The notes beneath the pieces are model-generated. The model saw nothing but the letters and a program-made list of their open reading frames with translations, made no database searches and was not told the origin of the DNA. The position numbers were made by a program, and so were the translations under genes. A DNA stretch of 40,363 nt, from positions 1 to 40,363 of the forward strand of contig JAMQHH010000016.1 of NCBI GenBank assembly GCA_025993875.1. The letters are read 5' to 3'. Source of the stretch: Candidatus Dojkabacteria bacterium (GTDB lineage: Bacteria > Patescibacteriota > Dojkabacteria > J137). Shown here one piece after another: positions 27,965 to 40,231 of this stretch. Position 1 is the stretch's first letter. The number at the start of each line of letters is the position of its first letter.

Positions 27965-30900
27965 CTAATTGTTAAGAAAAAATTTATTTACCTCTTGGTT
28001 AATGCTTTCGGAAGATTGATTTTCTGGCAGATTCTCAGATAAATATACATTTGAAACAACCCCTTTGTTTGTAATATCTACCTCTGCAATTTTTAGCAAC
28101 CCTTTTTCGACAACTTTATTTTTTAGTTGATCCAGTCTGTATCCTTGTTTCCAGCAATTAATAAAGTGAGTTCCATTGGCGGCATTAAAGCGTATTGAAC
28201 CATCTTTACCTGATATTTTTACGTCTACAATGTCAAATTTTCTGTTATACAACCTTGCCACAACTCCCTGTATGCCTGATTGGTCGACAGCTTTAATAAC
28301 TCTGCCTTCTTTTATTCTCCCCATATTAAGAAAAACGGGAATATTTAGTGCAATAATAAAAATGTACAACAATAAAAGCAATAGATTAATAGTAGAAAAG
28401 GATACAAGCGTTGATGAAACTGTATAACCAAATCCAAATAAAATGAGTATACCTAGGACAATCTTAATAAAATTAAATATCTCTGTTTTGGAATAGTAAG
28501 ATAATTTTTTAAATCTACTAAATAAAGAGATATTTTCTAGTTTTGTTAACGCAATATCGGATATTATTGCTCCGTTAGTTACATTAATCGCCGTTTCGAA
28601 AGGAAAATACCCGCCAGAGGAAACTTCGAGTTTGTAACTTCCGTTATTTAACACTTTTATAAAATACTTTCCCTCAGTGTCGGACACAGATTTATAAATC
28701 TCATTTGAGTTTGCTAAATTTTTTGCAACAATGTTTGCAAAAGGTACTGGTTTATTTTGAGATAAATCGACTATAATTCCCCAGTATTTTCTTTTTCGTG
28801 GAATTAAAAGACCCAGCACCATTAAACCTTTTAAAAACTGGTGGCCGCCACTAGATAAAGCTATTCCTGTTATAGCACTTAATGAAACAGCAACCAAAAT
28901 TGGAGAAGCAGTTACAACAGTATCAATAACAGTAAGAGTAGTTGCAGATCTACCGGTTTGTGTTAAAGAAATAGGTATAATAGGAACGTCGTTTAACTCT
29001 GTTGGTACAGGAATATTTAATGTGAATTCCCTGATTTCGGATGCTCCGCTTTGCGAATTATCTGCTTTAACACTAATAATTTGCCATATGTTTTGTCCCG
29101 ATTTAGCATGCAGGTTTGAAAGAGTGTATTGTAAAACACTACTTTCCACTTGCGCTATTTCCCTGCCGTTTACAAGTATTTTGTAACCTGTTACAAGAGG
29201 GTCTGTAGACTCCAGCCATTTGAGTGTAGGAAACGAAGTAACAAATTCAAGGTGCAATGGTGCTACAAGAGTAATCGGAAAACTAAAAGTGAATACTCTG
29301 GTTTCGGAAATACCGCTTTGAAAATTGTTTGCTCTTTTTGCAACAATGTGCCAGGTATAATTTCCGGAGGCAAGGGTGTTTGTTAAAGTATAAGTTGTAG
29401 TTGGGTGAGCAACTGTTGCCAGAAAGGTAGTGTTTAAATATATTTCATATGTTGATATTAAAGCATCGGTAGATGCCTGCCACTCAAGAACGGGAGAATT
29501 TGTGAGTGCTACATTATTATTTGGTGAAATTAATGTTATTGGAAAAGAGAAATCACTTACTGCAAAAATGCTTGTTGCCGATATAGCGCTTTGAGAGTGA
29601 TTTAGTCTTTTGGCTACAACGTACCATGTATAATTACCCGGAGCCAGATCTGTTGTTAATGAGTATGCTGTAACAGGGTGGGAAACAGAGGCTAAATGAT
29701 TCCCGTTTAAATATATGTCGTACGAACCTATCCATGGGTCTGTCGATGCAGTCCAAGATAGAGTAGGGAGGTTTACCGATACAGTTGCCCCGTTTACAGG
29801 AGCAGTTAAAGTAATTGGGTAAGGTGCATCAGGTGTGGTGATTGGATCAAAAACAATTTGTACCGGATTTGAAAAAATGCTAGCAACATAGGCAGCTTCT
29901 AAATATGAAGTTCTCCCGTTTGCAATTCCATCCGGTCCATTTACACCTCCTCCCGAGTAGCTGCCGGCTCCGTCGTCAAACCCTAGAAAAGATACATTAT
30001 CTTCAACAAGTGTAGTATCTACAGTTATTATCCACTGTGAACCATTCCAAACTGGGTTTGCATCTACCATTTCCAGCTCTATTGCCGTTCCGCCTCCTAA
30101 GCTATTGGTGGCATAATCGCGTGTTGCAGCTGGATTATAGGCCCACTGGTGAGCCCTATCAGTAAGAGTTTGAGGCTGACTTGTAGAGTTTCCGTCTGTG
30201 GTAAAAGTCTCAGCTTGCGCTATATGGTTTTGGTCAATTTTGTATGTAGAATAGTAGGTTTTCGTACCTGTCTGGTTAATAATGTACTCTACAAATGATC
30301 CGCGTAAAAGCGCCCAACTGTAAACCCCTAATGGTAATGGATTTAATCCAAATACTGCAGATTTGTTTAGTTCTCCACTGGTTGCGCCCGAAGCTGGGCA
30401 ATATCCTGCAGAAGAACAGTCCTGTTTAAAATTCCCTAATGTCTGCACCCTGGACGATGGATCTAGACTTTGTTGAACAATATTTGTAGATGGAATACTT
30501 AGACTTATAAATTCGTCTGCTAGGTCAGTTCTTCTAATGTTTCCCGAAAAAAGTTCAAAAAAACCGCTCCAGCTTTGAACAATATTTTCGTTATTTCCAT
30601 TTCCTGTACTAAAATCATTATCATTAAAAAGTGTCGATTCGTTTGCCGGCAGCGAATCAATACTGATAATACCACCCCAGCCGTTATCAGAAATACAATT
30701 AGCTTCCAATCCATTGCAGAGCGATCCAGTTAAAGTAGTCGTTCCACCAATTAAAAGTCTCGATGGACTTACATCAAACATATAAATATTTGGGTCAAGA
30801 TGGTACCCAAAACTAAACACCCCATATTGGTTGTTGCCCTTAATAGTGTTTCCATACAACTGACTAACTGCTGTAAATGTTCCTATCCCGTTTTTTAAAT

Positions 30901-33900
30901 TCCCTCCAAGGGGAAGTCCGGCAATTACCCTTCCCGTTCCTGCTCCAATGATATTATTACGAATTATTGGCCAGTTTGTGGAAGAATCCGCAACAACACC
31001 AAACCCGGGGTGATTTAAAATTAAAATACCGTCACCTTTGTTATCTGATATATCGTTATCTTCTACCACAAGCTGATTAGAATGTAGTAAGGCTTGAAAC
31101 TGTATTCCACCATATGAAGTAAAATATCCGTAGGCATTTTCACTCTCTTCTTGGTTATTAAACCTAATTAGATTTCCCGAAACAAGAAAATTTCCGGTAA
31201 CGGTTGTCTGAGAAGTTTGAAAAACTATTCCTCCCCTTTTATTTCCAAAATTTACGGTTCCTTCTTCGTTGGAACCAATAATATTTCCCTTTATCTCAAT
31301 ATCGTCCCAGACTGTAGAAAGCCCTGTGGCATTTAAAAAGTGCACTCCTCTAAGACCATTAGAAATAACATTGCCATCGTCAGGATTGCTTCCCCCAATA
31401 TATATGTTGGTACAGCTTCCCGGACAACTAATATAAATATTGACTCCTGCGTTTTCTCTCGCAATAGAGCCGGTGTTATCCAGTCCAAAGTAATTTCCTT
31501 TTATCGTTAAATTGTCGAGGCTAGAGGAATCAGTACCGGTAAAAGATATTGCAACATCTAAATCGCCAAATATATTTCTACCTGCCAAGCTCCCATCCCC
31601 AATGCTAATATCCGAAATGGATAGAGCGTTTTGCGTAAAGGATATGCCTGCATCTTCATTGACTCCCGGAGAAATGGATACTGGGGCGAATGCAGTATTT
31701 AGCCCGAAAACATTTCCCAAAATGGTAGTATTAGAAGCATCTGCATCAAAAAATATACATCCCGCACTGATACCTCCAGCACAAAAGTTTTCGGAAATTT
31801 CCATCCCTCCAAGAGGTCCGGTCAATGTAATTCCACTTCCAAGCGATATTGTTGAAGAGGTGAGCCCATCTGCAACAAGTCCAAAAGTATTGCCATTAAC
31901 AACAAAATTGGAAAAATTTGAATCAATACCCGAATTGTTTGCTACATTGATACCAGAGGAAGAACAATTAGAACAAACCAGCCCGCTTATCACATTGTCC
32001 GGGCCAATATTAATATTTGATGCCTGATTCGCAGATATCAAAATTGCAAAACTAATATTATCTGATCTTTCGAGCAGCCCTGTTGGGTCTAGTCCAAAAT
32101 AGTTATGGGAAATGGTTAAATCACTTATGGAATCTGTGGACACTATGCCAAGAAAAGTAGAGTTTTCCCCGGTAGCATTACCCGCAAAAATATTCATCTC
32201 GCCTATAACCGATCCTCCGATTTCCAGCTGAGAAATGTTGTTAAATGTTGGTGCGGGGTTCGAGCCGAATCCTGTTCCTGCTTGACCAAGTCTGTTGAGA
32301 CCAAAGTAATTTCCCTTTATCTCACTGGCTAACACATACGATTCAGGAGTTGAGTCTAGCCTTAGGCAAAAAGGTTGTCCTATTATGTTATTCAACAAAT
32401 GAAAATTAGAAATAGTCACACCAGCTGTTCCTTCGTAAGTTATGCAACCAGGTCTTGTAGAAGATGCATTGTTTTCAAAATACTTAAATCCGATTCCCCT
32501 TGGGTCCAATGCAATGTAATTTTCTAAAACCCAAACATGACTAATATTAACTCCAGACGGAATCCAGATTGCAGAGTGAGAATTGTTTAGAGCAAAACCT
32601 TTAATGGTTGTGTTATCAGCTCCATTTAAATTAAATATTGGAATTCCTGGCGTAAAAATGCTCACTTCAATTTCAGGACCGTCAATATTAAAATCACCAA
32701 CATTTATTGTCTGGGTAGATCCATCAATATTTACTGATTCTGAAATTGCATCAAAGCCCGAACTTTCTATTGTCCAATAATCATCGCCACCTGTACCGTC
32801 GCCGGAACCTGGGGTAGTGGGATCATCATAGTCCCTATAGCCCGGATCAAGTTGGGGAATATTAAAGTAAATGTTATCACTGCCAATAAGTGTGTTGGCT
32901 TCATTAATGGCAGCTTTTAGCGTACATGTTGCTATGGAGGTGGCACATAAACCATCACCCGGGGTATCGTCGGCTTCATCTCCTGTAGAATCCACTGTAA
33001 AGGTAGAATTTTCCATAACCTGAGATCGCACTTTTTTAATAACTGCCCCGTCTTTATCTAAAAGTTCAATTTCGGCGTAAACATACCCCCCTGGCCTATT
33101 TTGCGATCTTAAAATAAATACTGTTTCTCCTCTTACATTATTTTTAATCTCTGCTTCGCCAATAAATTCACCTGAATCGTAATAGATCTTTACAGAAAAT
33201 CTATGGAGTAATTCATCAATAATTATCTGGGATGTTTTTCCGTAAACAACCTTGTTGCCGTTTGCAAACGATGCCTGAAAAATTACAGGAAAAGGAATGT
33301 CTATAGCACTATCGGCTAAATCTATCTCTGTTATAAACGAAACTGGTGTTTCGGCAAATTGTTCATACGATACCGGCTCTTCTAAATTAAAGACTTCAAC
33401 TTTTTGTTTTTCTTTTTCTACTACTGTCGGATCTTCTACTGCATAAACAACCTGTAATTCTCGTTCAATTAACAAAGAGGATAGTGATGTGGGTGTTTTC
33501 CCATCGGAATTTAAGAATGCTTTTACATAAAGAGTGTTGCCTCCAATAATTGTGCCTAGCTCGTTCATTTTTTCCGAGACAGTTTTTGCTAAATTTGAGC
33601 TTGCCCAGCCAGATTCGGTTTTCTCCCATCCACTTAACCCGTAATAATACCAATGTGTTTTATCGGGAGAAAATTGGTATGTCACTGTTGAAAGTGGAGA
33701 TTGATTTGTTTCGATAGTTAGATTATTTAAGCTAGTGTAAGTACTATCTAGTATTCCTGCAAGTGAGGAAAATATAATAGGTTCTGTAAAAATAACATAG
33801 GGGCTTGTAGTAGTGTAGCCTTTAGAAACAAGCTCAATAGATTTACCTTCAACACTACCGCTTATAGGCACTTCTTGTTCTGTTGGGATCACAGTTACTT

Positions 33901-34942
33901 CCGGGCTTGTTTCAATAATATTATCGGGTAACGAAGAACTCTCAATCTGTTCTTCTGAACTTTCAATTTCTAGAGCTTCATTTGATAAATTTTCTATTAT
34001 TTCTGCAGGTTCAGAGGGATTGAGATCTGTATTTAATAAATTTTCTAATCCGAATAATTCCTCCGACGGTATTTCTTTGTCTAAACTATCTAATTCTAAA
34101 ATTTCCTGTGGATCAAACTGTTCCTTTAACTGAAGTTTTCCATCGACTATTTCGATTAGGGCAGAATCAAATTCACTTTTTTCCAAATCGATATAAACTT
34201 CCCGGGAAAAATCTGCAAATACGCTTTCTATTCTTACATTGTTAAATATTACAATGCCTCCGGCAATAAAAAGAGCAACCTGGCATATCAGAATAAAAAC
34301 ACCAGCAATTAGTGCAACCAAAGTAGGATATACTTGAACGCGAAATTTTTTAAGATCTTCTTCGGATTGAGCTATATTGGCATCTTTTCCTTTATGTGTA
34401 GTTACCAATAAAATTGCCAAATTTAAACTACTAACGATCTCATTTAATATCCATGGGAAAAACAGAAAAACCTTGTTTAAAAAAGTTTTTCCCATTCTCC
34501 ATCTAATAATATCTCTCTTGTTAGACAAGTTTAGCAAAGTTGTTCTAAAAAAAAGTTTATATTTCGAACCAATAGTTAACAATCCTGCTTGCTTTCCCAT
34601 GCAGGATAGAAATTTATTTAAAAATCCCGAGTCTTTTTTTTCAATGATAGAAAAATTTTGAGAAAATTGGGTTTTTATATTATAAGAGCCATCGGTGAGC
34701 ACAATAACTTTTCGGCTGTTTAGCCTTTGACTGCTTATAATAAAATCAAGAACCTCGCGGCCACTGTATTTAGGAAGGGTTGCATCAATTACTATAACCT
34801 CTGGGTCGGTGGCAAAAATTAAACCCAGCCCTTGTACACCATCCTGTGCGGTAAAAACTTCTATTCCGGGAAATTGCTCAGCAAGCAAAGACTTAAGAAT
34901 AAACCTTATTGCAAAATTATCATCAATAAGTACTAGTTTCAT
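27965..34942 (-). CDS. Giant receiver-domain surface protein: REC + membrane anchor + CSLREAI beta-helix + FN3-like repeats + two CarboxypepD_reg domains
   Basis: 2325 residues. Residues 1-115 are a response-regulator receiver with acid pocket Asp7/Asp8, phospho-acceptor Asp53 in VIDATLP, Thr83 and Lys102/103, so phosphorylation-competent. A hydrophobic stretch at about 158-180 and a strong transmembrane helix at 208-233 follow, then an acidic Ser/Glu-rich spacer (250-360). A CSLREAI-type module (CTLKAAINEAN, 673-683) leads into a long right-handed beta-helix (about 720-1480) with recurrent GNYFGLD-like turns. Three FN3-like repeats occupy 1700-1798, 1799-1886 and 1887-1978. Then a hydrophobic segment (2012-2048), a carboxypeptidase-regulatory-like domain (2053-2135), two helices (2155-2207) and a second such domain (2210-2300). 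The ectodomain is an adhesin by architecture. No kinase gene is near. The fusion of a cytoplasmic REC to an ectodomain is unusual; the frame is unbroken. Confidence 0.8.
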   Translation of the reverse strand: MKLVLIDDNFAIRFILKSLLAEQFPGIEVFTAQDGVQGLGLIFATDPEVIVIDATLPKYSGREVLDFIISSQRLNSRKVIVLTDGSYNIKTQFSQNFSIIEKKDSGFLNKFLSCMGKQAGLLTIGSKYKLFFRTTLLNLSNKRDIIRWRMGKTFLNKVFLFFPWILNEIVSSLNLAILLVTTHKGKDANIAQSEEDLKKFRVQVYPTLVALIAGVFILICQVALFIAGGIVIFNNVRIESVFADFSREVYIDLEKSEFDSALIEIVDGKLQLKEQFDPQEILELDSLDKEIPSEELFGLENLLNTDLNPSEPAEIIENLSNEALEIESSEEQIESSSLPDNIIETSPEVTVIPTEQEVPISGSVEGKSIELVSKGYTTTSPYVIFTEPIIFSSLAGILDSTYTSLNNLTIETNQSPLSTVTYQFSPDKTHWYYYGLSGWEKTESGWASSNLAKTVSEKMNELGTIIGGNTLYVKAFLNSDGKTPTSLSSLLIERELQVVYAVEDPTVVEKEKQKVEVFNLEEPVSYEQFAETPVSFITEIDLADSAIDIPFPVIFQASFANGNKVVYGKTSQIIIDELLHRFSVKIYYDSGEFIGEAEIKNNVRGETVFILRSQNRPGGYVYAEIELLDKDGAVIKKVRSQVMENSTFTVDSTGDEADDTPGDGLCATSIATCTLKAAINEANTLIGSDNIYFNIPQLDPGYRDYDDPTTPGSGDGTGGDDYWTIESSGFDAISESVNIDGSTQTINVGDFNIDGPEIEVSIFTPGIPIFNLNGADNTTIKGFALNNSHSAIWIPSGVNISHVWVLENYIALDPRGIGFKYFENNASSTRPGCITYEGTAGVTISNFHLLNNIIGQPFCLRLDSTPESYVLASEIKGNYFGLNRLGQAGTGFGSNPAPTFNNISQLEIGGSVIGEMNIFAGNATGENSTFLGIVSTDSISDLTISHNYFGLDPTGLLERSDNISFAILISANQASNINIGPDNVISGLVCSNCSSSGINVANNSGIDSNFSNFVVNGNTFGLVADGLTSSTISLGSGITLTGPLGGMEISENFCAGGISAGCIFFDADASNTTILGNVFGLNTAFAPVSISPGVNEDAGISFTQNALSISDISIGDGSLAGRNIFGDLDVAISFTGTDSSSLDNLTIKGNYFGLDNTGSIARENAGVNIYISCPGSCTNIYIGGSNPDDGNVISNGLRGVHFLNATGLSTVWDDIEIKGNIIGSNEEGTVNFGNKRGGIVFQTSQTTVTGNFLVSGNLIRFNNQEESENAYGYFTSYGGIQFQALLHSNQLVVEDNDISDNKGDGILILNHPGFGVVADSSTNWPIIRNNIIGAGTGRVIAGLPLGGNLKNGIGTFTAVSQLYGNTIKGNNQYGVFSFGYHLDPNIYMFDVSPSRLLIGGTTTLTGSLCNGLEANCISDNGWGGIISIDSLPANESTLFNDNDFSTGNGNNENIVQSWSGFFELFSGNIRRTDLADEFISLSIPSTNIVQQSLDPSSRVQTLGNFKQDCSSAGYCPASGATSGELNKSAVFGLNPLPLGVYSWALLRGSFVEYIINQTGTKTYYSTYKIDQNHIAQAETFTTDGNSTSQPQTLTDRAHQWAYNPAATRDYATNSLGGGTAIELEMVDANPVWNGSQWIITVDTTLVEDNVSFLGFDDGAGSYSGGGVNGPDGIANGRTSYLEAAYVASIFSNPVQIVFDPITTPDAPYPITLTAPVNGATVSVNLPTLSWTASTDPWIGSYDIYLNGNHLASVSHPVTAYSLTTDLAPGNYTWYVVAKRLNHSQSAISATSIFAVSDFSFPITLISPNNNVALTNSPVLEWQASTDALISTYEIYLNTTFLATVAHPTTTYTLTNTLASGNYTWHIVAKRANNFQSGISETRVFTFSFPITLVAPLHLEFVTSFPTLKWLESTDPLVTGYKILVNGREIAQVESSVLQYTLSNLHAKSGQNIWQIISVKADNSQSGASEIREFTLNIPVPTELNDVPIIPISLTQTGRSATTLTVIDTVVTASPILVAVSLSAITGIALSSGGHQFLKGLMVLGLLIPRKRKYWGIIVDLSQNKPVPFANIVAKNLANSNEIYKSVSDTEGKYFIKVLNNGSYKLEVSSGGYFPFETAINVTNGAIISDIALTKLENISLFSRFKKLSYYSKTEIFNFIKIVLGILILFGFGYTVSSTLVSFSTINLLLLLLYIFIIALNIPVFLNMGRIKEGRVIKAVDQSGIQGVVARLYNRKFDIVDVKISGKDGSIRFNAANGTHFINCWKQGYRLDQLKNKVVEKGLLKIAEVDITNKGVVSNVYLSENLPENQSSESINQEVNKFFLNN
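29011..29845 (-). repeat. Three tandem FN3-like repeats inside the giant surface protein
   Basis: Residues 1700-1978 hold three copies of about 88-98 residues. Each begins with PITL, has a W in the B strand (LSW, LEW, LKW), a STD turn, a YxIYLN strand and a NYTWxxVAKR-type strand, and ends in SGISE or similar. Copies 1 and 2 are closest; copy 3 has diverged. This is internal duplication within the coding frame and serves as a stalk. Confidence 0.75.
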
Positions 34943-35028: not shown

Positions 35029-35167
35029 GCAACTAATGTGACTTAAAGGTCGAAAATTACAAATTTGGCACTAAATTTTTATCCCATAAAATTTTTTTGC
35101 TTCTTTCTGTTATTTAATTATGGTAGCCTTAAAAAAGTAAAAATTTTGCTTTTATGGGTAGCCAAAC

Positions 35168-37501
35168 ATGCTAGGCCAAAAAGGCCAAATCTATTCGGAA
35201 CCTTCCCAATTTCGCCCCCATGTTACAGAAGATGTTTCTCCCAAGACAAGAGACCAAACAATGGGTATTTCGTTATCTTTTTTGGCAGAGATTTTTAAAA
35301 TGATGGTGCCACATGGCCATCAATTACAATGGAATCCTGACAAAGATGATACTACATTAGACTATTGGTTTCCTAAACAAAGTATTGCCAACGCAATAGC
35401 TTCGTTTCTAGATTATATAGCAAAGAATTTTAATCCAGGTAGTTTAAAAAAAGAGGACTCTCGTAAAGATAATCTTAGTTTACCGTCGGGAGAAGATAGA
35501 GAAGACATATTAAGGCGAATAAAAATTGCCATAGAAAAAAAAATGATAGGAGAGCAGGATTGTGAATTTGAACAAATAGAGGGTTTATATCTTGCCATAT
35601 TGGGCTGGTATGGGATTATTTTTCATATGCAGGAAAATTTAATTGAGGACTGGCTTTTTTTAAGGCAAAATCAGCAAATCAATATTCGGGAGAACTTAGA
35701 AAGAAAGTACAAAACAACTCCTGGATATATTTTAGATATTTTTGAAGAGTTTTTGCAAAAGGTGAAGGATAGCGATTCTATTGATCTATTCTGTGAGGAA
35801 TTCGGAATTATTATATGTAAAATGCAGTTTTCAAAGAATTTTTCCGGTCTTACGGACGAAGAGCTGCAAGAACTTTTATATACCGAAAATCTTTATGACA
35901 TAATATACAAAATTGCAACGACAAGAAGTGCAAAAGAACACAACGAGGGTTTGCAAACATATTCTGAAGTAAGTGTTAAAGCGAAGCTCTTTTTTAACCC
36001 CGAAAAGCCCCTGGAAAGAGTAACAATCGATATCAGGTTCGATAAAATAGAAGTAGTAAGAGATGAAAATGGAAAAATTACCGAAGTGAGGATAAGAGAT
36101 TTTAAAAGCGGGATGTTAGGCGGTATTCTAACTCTATCGGCCGGCGAGTTACTGCAGTGGGTATTAAACATTATTGTTGTCTCCGAATTGGTTTCTAAAT
36201 TATCAAGAGATCCTGTTAAAAGTGAAGACGATTTTAAATTCTTTCTTGTGGAGATTAAACTTTGGGAATTTTCCGATCACTATAAACATGCCAAGAAGCT
36301 GGCAAGGGTAAAGCAGAGCTGGATTCCTACGGGTGAGAATGTTGACGGGAAAACTCTTGATTTCGAATTTTCTTTAACCGAATTAATGCGTGTTTTGCAT
36401 TCCATTGCCGATCTTTTTGAACACTTATTGGATTGTAAAAAAAGAATTTCTGAATTAAGAAAGTCGGAAACGAAAAAAGCTGAATACCCAGTGCTGGCTT
36501 TTCCTAAGCCACCGCCAAGTAATAAAGTTTCACCAGAATGGGCATTAAAGTCTCCTCCAGGCTTACAAACAGCAATTGTCTCTGAAAACCCTTATAATTT
36601 AATCGATAGACCAATGGAAATGATGGATGGCGTTGATCTAATTGAACCTTTGAATAACAGGCCAATTCTAAAGATAATAAAAGGCGGAAGGTTAACAGAG
36701 GTTACACTTTTTAAAGGAAGAGGTAGTTCATTTCGGGATGCGCAAATCCAATATGTTTTTAATGGTCCGGATGTATTAGATGAAGATAATAATCTTTATT
36801 ATGGGATTACAAGAGAGACTCTTTATATCGTTATCAATGGAGAGGTTTTTATTCTTTCAATCCCACAACAAAGATATTTCGCCTTAAAGGGCCTAGATGG
36901 GATATTTTGTTTTGACCAACCAAACTCTCTAATTTATCTATCACTATTAACTCCAGGTAATCTTCCAGCCTATCGGCAAAACCTAAATCTAAGAGTTAAT
37001 TTTGAACGTAAAAAATTACCTGGGTTTCAAAAAACAAATGATTATGCATTTTATGATAATAAGTATTACCCTATTTTTGAATACAAGGGGATATTTTTTA
37101 TAAAGTATTCGGTAAATATATATTTTATTGTGGATAAGCAAAGTAGAGATGTTTATAATAATCGATTTTTTACAACATGCGAATTATTGGCATTTGCCGA
37201 TGCAAGCGTTACTAGGGAACAATGGGATAAGGTTTTTGAAGAGCTTGAATTAAGCCGGTTCCCTGTTAATTTGTATTACTACAACGATAGGCATGGCAAT
37301 CCACAACCACCCTATGTGGAGATAATAGGTAAAAATACATCTTACCCACTATCAGAAGACAATACATTTACTATAGACGGTATTATTAAATACGGACTAT
37401 ATTTAGGGGAGGAAAACGAGGTTATGGCTTATAGATTGCATGCAGGATTTAACGGCAGTATGTTAGAGAGGGAGGAGTATGTTAGTGCCATAGAACAATA
37501 A
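35168..37501 (+). CDS. Unknown protein with a PD-(D/E)XK nuclease-type core and a beta-rich C-terminal half
   Basis: 777 residues. The N-terminal helical part (about 40-250) precedes a segment with the exact spacing of RecB/Cas4-type nuclease motifs: SEVSVKAKLFF with Glu267, a strand ending TIDIRFDKIEV with Asp292, and RIRDFKSG with Asp311 and Lys313, followed by ELLQWVLNIIV (327-337), which resembles the QxxxY helix. Residues 450-500 are a Pro-rich linker. The C-terminal 280 residues are beta-rich with repeated aromatic and Asn/Asp turns (for instance YFALKGLDGIFCFD, FYDNKYYPIFEYKG) and resemble no family I can name. The ATG at 35168 is used; a second ATG at 35261 is possible. No SD. Divergent from the giant surface protein. 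Confidence 0.55.
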   Translation: MLGQKGQIYSEPSQFRPHVTEDVSPKTRDQTMGISLSFLAEIFKMMVPHGHQLQWNPDKDDTTLDYWFPKQSIANAIASFLDYIAKNFNPGSLKKEDSRKDNLSLPSGEDREDILRRIKIAIEKKMIGEQDCEFEQIEGLYLAILGWYGIIFHMQENLIEDWLFLRQNQQINIRENLERKYKTTPGYILDIFEEFLQKVKDSDSIDLFCEEFGIIICKMQFSKNFSGLTDEELQELLYTENLYDIIYKIATTRSAKEHNEGLQTYSEVSVKAKLFFNPEKPLERVTIDIRFDKIEVVRDENGKITEVRIRDFKSGMLGGILTLSAGELLQWVLNIIVVSELVSKLSRDPVKSEDDFKFFLVEIKLWEFSDHYKHAKKLARVKQSWIPTGENVDGKTLDFEFSLTELMRVLHSIADLFEHLLDCKKRISELRKSETKKAEYPVLAFPKPPPSNKVSPEWALKSPPGLQTAIVSENPYNLIDRPMEMMDGVDLIEPLNNRPILKIIKGGRLTEVTLFKGRGSSFRDAQIQYVFNGPDVLDEDNNLYYGITRETLYIVINGEVFILSIPQQRYFALKGLDGIFCFDQPNSLIYLSLLTPGNLPAYRQNLNLRVNFERKKLPGFQKTNDYAFYDNKYYPIFEYKGIFFIKYSVNIYFIVDKQSRDVYNNRFFTTCELLAFADASVTREQWDKVFEELELSRFPVNLYYYNDRHGNPQPPYVEIIGKNTSYPLSEDNTFTIDGIIKYGLYLGEENEVMAYRLHAGFNGSMLEREEYVSAIEQ

Positions 37502-37512
37502 TAACATGACAT

Positions 37513-38019
37513 TCAAATCTTTCTGCTATCGTATGCCCAGTGCAAAAGCGCCTGCCTTTGTACAGGTCTGCAGCTTGCGTCTCCTATATACATACAGTTC
37601 TTCTTTACCTGAGCAATATGCCTTTTCATTGCTTTCCATCTTTTTATTTGACGAGCGTCGTCGGGGTGCCTTCTACCCATATAATAACGGCAGTACCATT
37701 GAAACCATCCTCTTGGATCGTCGGGATTGATCCAACCTTTTTGCTGCCAAACTTTTAAAGGCTGGCCGGCGTTAACTTTGTAGTAATTTAGCAAAGGATC
37801 TTTTTTAAGAGGAGAAAGTTTTGCTGTAATAAACCAGTCTTTTGGAAATTCATTAACACAATCGGTTAGGTATTTACCTCCAAATACTCCTATCGAAAGC
37901 ATCTCTTTTGGCGATAAATCCGGGTTAAAATCCAAATCAAAGTTCTTCCCTATGGGTTCAACCAAGAAATATTCATATTCTTTTTGCATTTTATCGCTCA
38001 CTATTACTCGCTTTGGCAT
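37513..38019 (-). CDS. Conserved-type hypothetical protein, Trp/Arg-rich C-terminus
   Basis: 168 residues, no family recognised by name. Landmarks: LSPKEMLSIGVFGGKYLTD in the middle, then a strongly basic and aromatic run with WFQWYCRYYMGRR and RQIKRWKAMKRHIAQVKKN, and a C-terminal RQRQALLHWAYDSR-like end. The conserved look of the C-terminal block suggests a nucleic-acid or protein contact surface. It converges on the PD-(D/E)XK gene with 11 bases between stops. A candidate -10 is in the shared divergent promoter at 38060-38065. Confidence 0.7.
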   Translation of the reverse strand: MPKRVIVSDKMQKEYEYFLVEPIGKNFDLDFNPDLSPKEMLSIGVFGGKYLTDCVNEFPKDWFITAKLSPLKKDPLLNYYKVNAGQPLKVWQQKGWINPDDPRGWFQWYCRYYMGRRHPDDARQIKRWKAMKRHIAQVKKNCMYIGDASCRPVQRQALLHWAYDSRKI

Positions 38020-39736: not shown

Positions 39737-39970
39737 ATGGGCAAACTAAATTTTATTAAAGACAATAAATCGCTTTATTCTCCGTCCGCTAAAGAGCCTT
39801 CGATTATCGAAGTGCCTTCAATGCAATTTATTGCGATCGAAGGCAGCGGAGACCCAAACACCTCACAAAGCTATAAACTTGCTGTTGAGGCATTGTATTC
39901 TATTTCGTTCACTATTAAATTTCTTCCGAAAAAAGGGACTAACGTGACCCCCGTAAACTGTACAGTGTAA
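39737..39970 (+). pseudogene. Truncated GyrI-like small-molecule-binding protein
   Basis: The 77-residue frame matches only the first third of GyrI-like proteins (normally about 200 residues): KSLYSPSAKEPSIIEVPSM (11-29), FIAIEGSGDPNTS (31-43), YKLAVEALYSISFTIKFLPKKG (46-67, here split as YKLAVEALY and SISFTIKFLPKKG). After KKG the family continues with an aromatic DYTVMPLEGLWW-type part; here it becomes TNVTPVNCTV and stops. The break is followed at once by a serine-recombinase fragment in the same frame (39998), so the gene was probably cut by a recombination or insertion event. It has its own promoter. Confidence 0.6.
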
Positions 39971-39990
39971 AATATAATAATTGTTACACT
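39964..39990 (+). promoter_or_regulatory. 27-bp inverted repeat enclosing a TATAAT box
   Basis: AGTGTAA (39964-39970) and TTACACT (39984-39990) are a perfect 7-bp inverted repeat separated by 13 bases that contain a perfect TATAAT (39973-39978). The layout is that of a repressor operator across a -10. ACTGTACAGT (39957-39966), a perfect 10-bp palindrome, overlaps its left edge. It sits between the truncated GyrI-like gene and the recombinase fragment, 7 bases before the ATG at 39998. Confidence 0.35.
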
Positions 39991-39997
39991 AAAAGCT

Positions 39998-40231
39998 ATG
40001 GCAGAAAAAGAAAAGATTCAGAAATTGAACAAAGACAGCAATAAGTATTATCAGGTTGGTACTCTTGTTTATTTAGTTGCCCAATATGCTGACGAGATTT
40101 ACGATGTTCTCGGTCCAGAAGATGTAAGTGGCTTAATGAAATACATCTTTGGTGATATAACCCTCTACAACGGCAAAATGCAATATAAATATAAGGAACC
40201 TTTTAAGGTTTGTCAAGACCCCATTTTTTAG
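39998..40231 (+). pseudogene. C-terminal fragment of a large serine recombinase, end replaced by IS sequence
   Basis: The 77-residue frame shows the end of phage/SpoIVCA-type serine recombinases: a helix region KIQKLNKDSNKYYQVGTLVYL followed by EIYDVLGPEDVSGLMKYIF then GDITLYNGKMQYKYKEPFK. The catalytic N-terminal domain and zinc ribbon are missing, so it cannot be active. The last codons (after KEPFKV) coincide with the start of the insertion-sequence end at 40211, so the native C-terminus has been replaced by CQDPIF and a stop from the IS. Follows a truncated GyrI-like gene; both are remnants of a mobile-element event. Confidence 0.6.

Follow-up and report, generated by a model that had tools for sequence, protein, structure and literature searches.

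The 777-aa open reading frame (ORF) at 35168-37501 on the plus strand of the window (the whole stretch of DNA analysed, 40,363 nt, corresponding to contig C13, one of 40 in a 96%-complete genome of 0.93 Mb) may encode a stand-alone, probably cytosolic and strongly diverged RecB-type PD-(D/E)XK nuclease with its core in the middle third of the protein. We assign this reading, which is based on sequence comparison, a probability of roughly 0.6. At the search sensitivity used the gene is a singleton, and we refer to its product as the orphan. The gene, the site upstream of it and its divergent neighbour are as follows:

35168-37501 (+): orphan protein, candidate RecB-type PD-(D/E)XK nuclease (ORF, codon usage, zero relatives found)
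35065-35092 (+): promoter-like site TTGGCA-16-TAAAAT, upstream of the orphan ORF (consensus match only)
27965-34942 (-): receiver-domain giant surface-type protein, divergent neighbour (shown as context; recurs without the orphan)

Sequence checks agreed with the original prediction on the ORF, which has an ATG start, and on the positions of Glu267, Asp292, Asp311 and Lys313. The codon usage of the gene is typical, its leave-one-out score ranking 66th among the 127 ORFs with 250 or more codons in 221 kb of its own genome plus the window, a set chosen on length alone and including some antisense frames; its GC3 is 0.299, compared to a mean of 0.278 (sd 0.027) for these long ORFs. This mid-range codon usage suggests an ordinary resident gene rather than a chance frame. 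Translation may start at the ATG at 35168 or at codon 32 (35261), the ribosome-binding site being unclear by eye for either. The promoter-like site is weak, since shuffles of the 3.3-kb region yield 12.9 (sd 4.4) such sites and the region itself 21. A 168-aa ORF converges on the 3' end of the gene, and no gene for a helicase, a Cas protein or another DNA-processing function was recognised directly beside it. By eye no signal peptide is seen, and the most hydrophobic segment (residues 320-338, mean of 1.77 over 19 residues) coincides with the putative motif IV helix, although this value by itself would not exclude a membrane helix. DNA capture at the cell surface, one of the roles proposed in the original prediction, is thus disfavoured; the orphan is probably a cytosolic protein.

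Searches for relatives returned the orphan itself and matches that we attribute to chance. For the whole protein, no family was found at E 1 in Pfam, NCBIfam, PADLOC and PHROGs, and Pfam at E 10 gave nothing for the core, the tail or the N terminus taken separately. None of the PADLOC-DB models of anti-phage defence matched at E <= 1 (this protein alone being scanned), and a sequence search with the core found no PDB chain up to E 10. Toxoflavin lyase in the PDB was matched by the whole protein at E 0.24 and by the tail at E 0.065, which was judged to be chance. In translated searches the gene was matched in its own genome (1/1), namely by itself; in 2 of 191 relatives at E 0.001, i.e., the orphan and one match judged spurious; in 1 of 85 genomes of the class at E 0.01, again its own; and in 2 of 379 genomes of a phylum sample, its own and the same spurious one. 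A further phylum sample with identical tallies added nothing beyond the spurious match; the samples of relatives, class and phylum overlap and their counts are not additive. The spurious match (G185, E 7.9e-4, 27% over residues 654-728) falls in a frame that by eye looks like a VirB4/TraD-type ATPase; a match in a genome of the same family (G002, E 0.11) has two stops inside and another (G190, E 0.16) also contains stops, and both were considered noise. Phage and plasmid collections held no match at E 1. Seed scans of genome and viral contig collections, which demand exact eight-residue seeds and detect close relatives only, gave 8, 176, 2, 13, 1, and 12 pattern matches, none confirmed as relatives. 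Literature searches gave no work devoted to an orphan nuclease in Patescibacteria, the group to which the genome probably belongs, judging from its size and gene content.

Profiles of nuclease domains from related genomes nevertheless match the middle of the protein, as follows:

35954-36187 (+): candidate nuclease core, residues 263-340 (hmmsearch match to 263-316, hhalign match to 282-338)

A PDDEXK_1 domain scores above the Pfam cut-off in 52 of 57 relatives, that of the own genome lying within a 1029-aa frame. A first profile was formed from the 30 of these domains whose loci were available, the own-genome nuclease among them; with it, hmmsearch (all filters off) gave the orphan 9.5 bits over residues 263-316, placing RFDKIEV on GkiDriD and VRIRDFKSG on kivDYKtg. 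This score was reached by 0 of 2000 full shuffles (best 7.1 bits) and 0 of 2000 block shuffles (best 8.2 bits). In a set of 302 stop-to-stop frames, each 120 aa or longer (221 kb of the own genome plus the window), the orphan ranked third, after the genome's own RecB-like nuclease (193.2 bits) and a 207-aa frame (13.1 bits) and before DnaJ (7.2 bits). Because the top frame had itself contributed to the profile, a second one was built from 29 PDDEXK_1 domains of related genomes with the own nuclease held out. The orphan then scored 11.8 bits, higher than all of the same 4000 shuffles (best 9.4 bits), and was again third, after the own nuclease (146.7 bits) and the 207-aa frame (14.4 bits), with the next frame at 4.7 bits. 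The 207-aa frame, present in neither profile, is a true Cas4 (4.8e-55, PADLOC). With the own nuclease and Cas4 on top and the orphan following with a wide gap behind it, the profile supports a nuclease core, short of proof, and the held-out test raised our confidence in the nuclease reading from 0.55 to 0.6. Other comparisons are less favourable. The hhalign match of the 30-domain profile to residues 282-338 has a probability of 21%, and among 170 frames scored the orphan ranks third when ordered by score, and fourth when ordered by probability or E-value. Ahead of it, at 27.8%, is a frame that looks membrane-anchored, lacks the motifs and matches the C-terminal end of the profile only. The curated Pfam PDDEXK_1 model gave 0 matches, either with the whole orphan (E <= 1) or with the core alone (E <= 10). 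The RecB/Cas4-type core of the original prediction is favoured by profile scores that exceed those of 4000 shuffles, and finds weaker backing from hhalign, at 21%, and none from curated families.

RecB-type nucleases carry the motifs Ia (His), I (Glu), II (Asp), III (Asp-x-Lys) and IV (QhxxY), described for MGME1 in PMC6237815 and for Cas4-like proteins in PMC4625639 and PMC3466216. The candidate counterparts in the orphan are:

35609-35626 (+): YGIIFH, residues 148-153, candidate motif Ia histidine (His153; [FYL]GxxhH-like shape)
35966-35968 (+): Glu267, candidate motif I (sequence position and spacing)
36041-36043 (+): Asp292, candidate motif II, GxxD column (hmmsearch and hhalign profile alignments)
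36098-36106 (+): Asp311-Phe-Lys313, candidate motif III, DYK column (hmmsearch and hhalign profile alignments)
36152-36154 (+): Gln329, candidate motif IV, QWVLN for QhxxY (sequence; inside the hhalign range)

Asp292 and Asp311/Lys313 stand in the register of the catalytic columns in both hmmsearch (filters off) and hhalign; the glycine of GxxD is missing. The spacing of 19 from Asp292 to Asp311 compares with 14-18 in 25 of 26 measured references. His153, Glu267 and QWVLN are present in the expected order, but His and Glu are unplaced by the profile and the Tyr of motif IV is missing, being replaced by Asn. Counted by eye, the distance of 25 from Glu267 to Asp292 equals that in the own-genome reference L050, although the profile alignment sets its conserved Glu on Lys273 rather than on Glu267. 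Gln329 lies outside the hmmsearch match and within the range of hhalign, near the Gln of the references. The [FYL]GxxhH motif occurs in 30 of 30 references (FGTAIH, YGSVIH, etc.), yet neither a profile alignment nor MAFFT put His153 on their His column, and its distance to Asp292 is 139 compared to 86-103 in 23 of 26 measured references, i.e., ca. 40 residues longer.

The E, D, DxK, and Q residues by themselves would be weak evidence: the E..D..DxK..Q pattern occurs in 26/30 references and 4/302 frames, and also in 208/5000 shuffles of the orphan. A pattern from GxxxH to DxK was found in 29/30 references, 4/302 frames, and 49/5000 shuffles, and the five-motif pattern, with GxxxH added, in 26/30, 2/302, and 9/5000, respectively. 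The two frames are the orphan and the genome's RecB-like nuclease, the latter being among the references that shaped the pattern, and the five-motif odds flatter the orphan because the spacing limits were set with it in view. All three patterns miss the genome's Cas4. Of the other patterns tried, a narrow one found nothing among the 302 frames, the orphan included, a looser one found three with the orphan among them, and an intermediate GxxxH...DxK pattern found the orphan alone and was replaced because it missed the genome's true nuclease. We consider the profile scores a fairer test than residue patterns drawn up with this protein in view.

When compared to known nucleases, the orphan shares with the PDDEXK_1 (PF12705) or RecB-AddB-type domain the GxxD-like and DxK columns, a Glu and Gln in order and a candidate GxxxH. 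It differs in showing no sign of a fused helicase and no YSxLxxYxxCP-like entry motif, in the ca. 40 residues of additional H-to-D spacing and in a score below the curated cut-off. With the Cas4 of its own genome (L069:15959-16579) it has the RecB-type order of the Asp and DxK motifs in common, but that protein comprises 206-207 aa, in contrast to 777, and lies beside cas12a, cas1, and cas2, whereas no cas neighbour of the orphan was recognised among the window ORFs scanned. Its six cysteines (132, 209, 217, 423, 581, and 671) are, by eye, scattered with no C-terminal trio in the nuclease part; lacking the four Fe-S cysteines and matching 0 PADLOC families at E <= 1, the orphan does not group with Cas4. 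The type V-A CRISPR-Cas locus of the genome (L069:12191-18109, contig C16) comprises Cas12a (1199 aa), Cas4, Cas1, and Cas2 (PADLOC), followed by two 36-nt repeats ending TTTCTACTTTTGTAGAT with a spacing of 63, up to the contig end. MGME1, a mitochondrial RecB-type exonuclease, is likewise stand-alone with motifs Ia, I, II, III, and IV according to PMC6237815, but with a tighter spacing (H180, E223, D238, D251, K253, Q271) than that of the orphan; the sequence search of PDB chains with the orphan core gave, as stated, nothing at E 10.

Structure prediction was run without an alignment, since a forced PDDEXK_1 alignment would have imposed the answer. The single-sequence AlphaFold2 model of residues 221-442 has a pLDDT of 36.6, and its order of elements around the motifs (helix, a run of strands, helix, strands, helix) is compatible with a nuclease core, which at this pLDDT is no evidence of the fold. 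The best 50 of the 727 Foldseek matches to this model, kinesins and others with E values from 0.026 upwards, contained no nuclease and none with E <= 0.001. The C-terminal part was modelled likewise:

36596-37498 (+): C-terminal region, residues 477-777, perhaps beta-rich (AlphaFold2 mostly strands, pLDDT 36.8)

This tail has no credible sequence match (Pfam at E 10, PDB sequences) and no internal repeats above the level of 30 shuffles. The original proposal that the C-terminal half is unlike any family is borne out, at the thresholds applied, by Pfam, NCBIfam, PADLOC, PHROGs, and PDB sequences. The beta-rich character suggested with it fits the predominance of strands in the model, but a model of pLDDT 36.8 is too poor for use and the tail is only perhaps beta-rich.

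The orphan could instead be an unrelated protein whose beta-hairpin region resembles a PD-(D/E)XK core by chance. The failure of all curated families to match speaks for this, as do the hhalign probability below that of a motif-less frame and the 208 of 5000 shuffles that carry E..D..DxK..Q. Yet not one of 4000 shuffles reaches the orphan with either the 30-domain or the held-out profile, only two true nucleases precede it, at 11.8 bits versus 4.7 for the next frame, and the profile columns, GxxxH and Gln occur in the right order; we therefore regard a chance resemblance as unlikely. Alternatively, the protein may have kept a RecB-type fold but no catalysis, and serve in DNA binding or as a structural component. 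Such a loss would suit the degenerate motif IV (QWVLN) and the missing GxxD glycine, and it has a reported precedent in the nucleocapsid protein TP1 of TTV1 (PMC4625639). Since D292, D311, and K313 are all retained, along with a candidate Glu and His, this seems improbable.

The original prediction also inferred a shared role with the giant neighbour from their divergent layout. The layout itself was confirmed: the 2325-aa ORF at 27965-34942 (-) carries an N-terminal receiver domain, joined in one frame to a giant surface-type protein with Big_7 and carboxypeptidase-regulatory-like domains, and the starts of the two genes are 225 bp apart, which would suit a functional partnership in surface DNA capture or the processing of imported DNA. 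However, the N-terminal 281 residues of the giant found a match at E 1e-8 in 15 of the 85 class genomes, while the orphan was matched in 0 of the 84 other class genomes at E 0.01. Ten of the 15, among them the own genome, have this match in an open frame of 900 aa or more; the remaining matches, in short frames, may be cut-off copies or plain receivers. The own genome has a second copy of the giant on C23. From 29 match places, 13 stretches upstream of giants were picked, including that of this second copy and two that are short (contig ends), and none held an orphan-like or nuclease-like ORF, the best nuclease-profile score being 2.7 bits. Nor did any frame match the orphan at E 0.1 in nine loci at the 168-aa neighbour and nine at adhesin matches (best nuclease-profile score 5.6 bits). 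One adhesin-flank frame matching residues 196-350 (E 0.21) is a LigD-type DNA ligase and was judged a chance match. The survey thus revealed no joint recurrence among the 85 class genomes beyond the own one; orphan and giant adjoin here and are not a recurrent pair. With, in addition, no secretion signal seen by eye, a partnership is highly improbable, and this check removes a tempting link between the receiver-adhesin and DNA processing.

If the orphan is a RecB-type nuclease, its chemistry would, by analogy with MGME1, involve His153, Asp292, and Asp311 in holding divalent metal ions, with Glu267 acting through water; the scissile phosphate would be the site of action of Lys313, and Gln329 would contact the DNA backbone. 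The protein would then cut DNA, with single strands or ends as the likely substrate. Being encoded by one gene and having no recognised DNA-processing neighbour, it would have to choose its substrate by itself, and, because no such gene lies directly beside it, the N-terminal helical part and the C-terminal region might supply this choice or a restraint. Its biological role, as a defence effector or in processing the cell's own DNA, is a guess. A single-protein effector of defence or DNA surveillance, i.e., a RecB-type nuclease restrained by a C-terminal sensor of a new beta-rich fold and private to one reduced-genome lineage, would be a long shot. If the core is true, the orphan is a stand-alone RecB-type nuclease of large size whose architecture is described by none of the libraries searched, and it would show how far such a domain can diverge in bacteria with reduced genomes; if it is false, the protein is one more lineage-specific orphan.

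Two observations concern the remainder of the contig. The convergent 168-aa neighbour (37513-38019, -), which has no Pfam family, is conserved but patchy, with ca. 70% identity across several families of the class yet present in only 11 of 85 genomes. Close to the contig end, at 39737-40231 (+), lie two short adjacent frames, the first of which matches approximately the first 45 of 155 GyrI-like positions, below the cut-off, so that they may be a broken or split gene.
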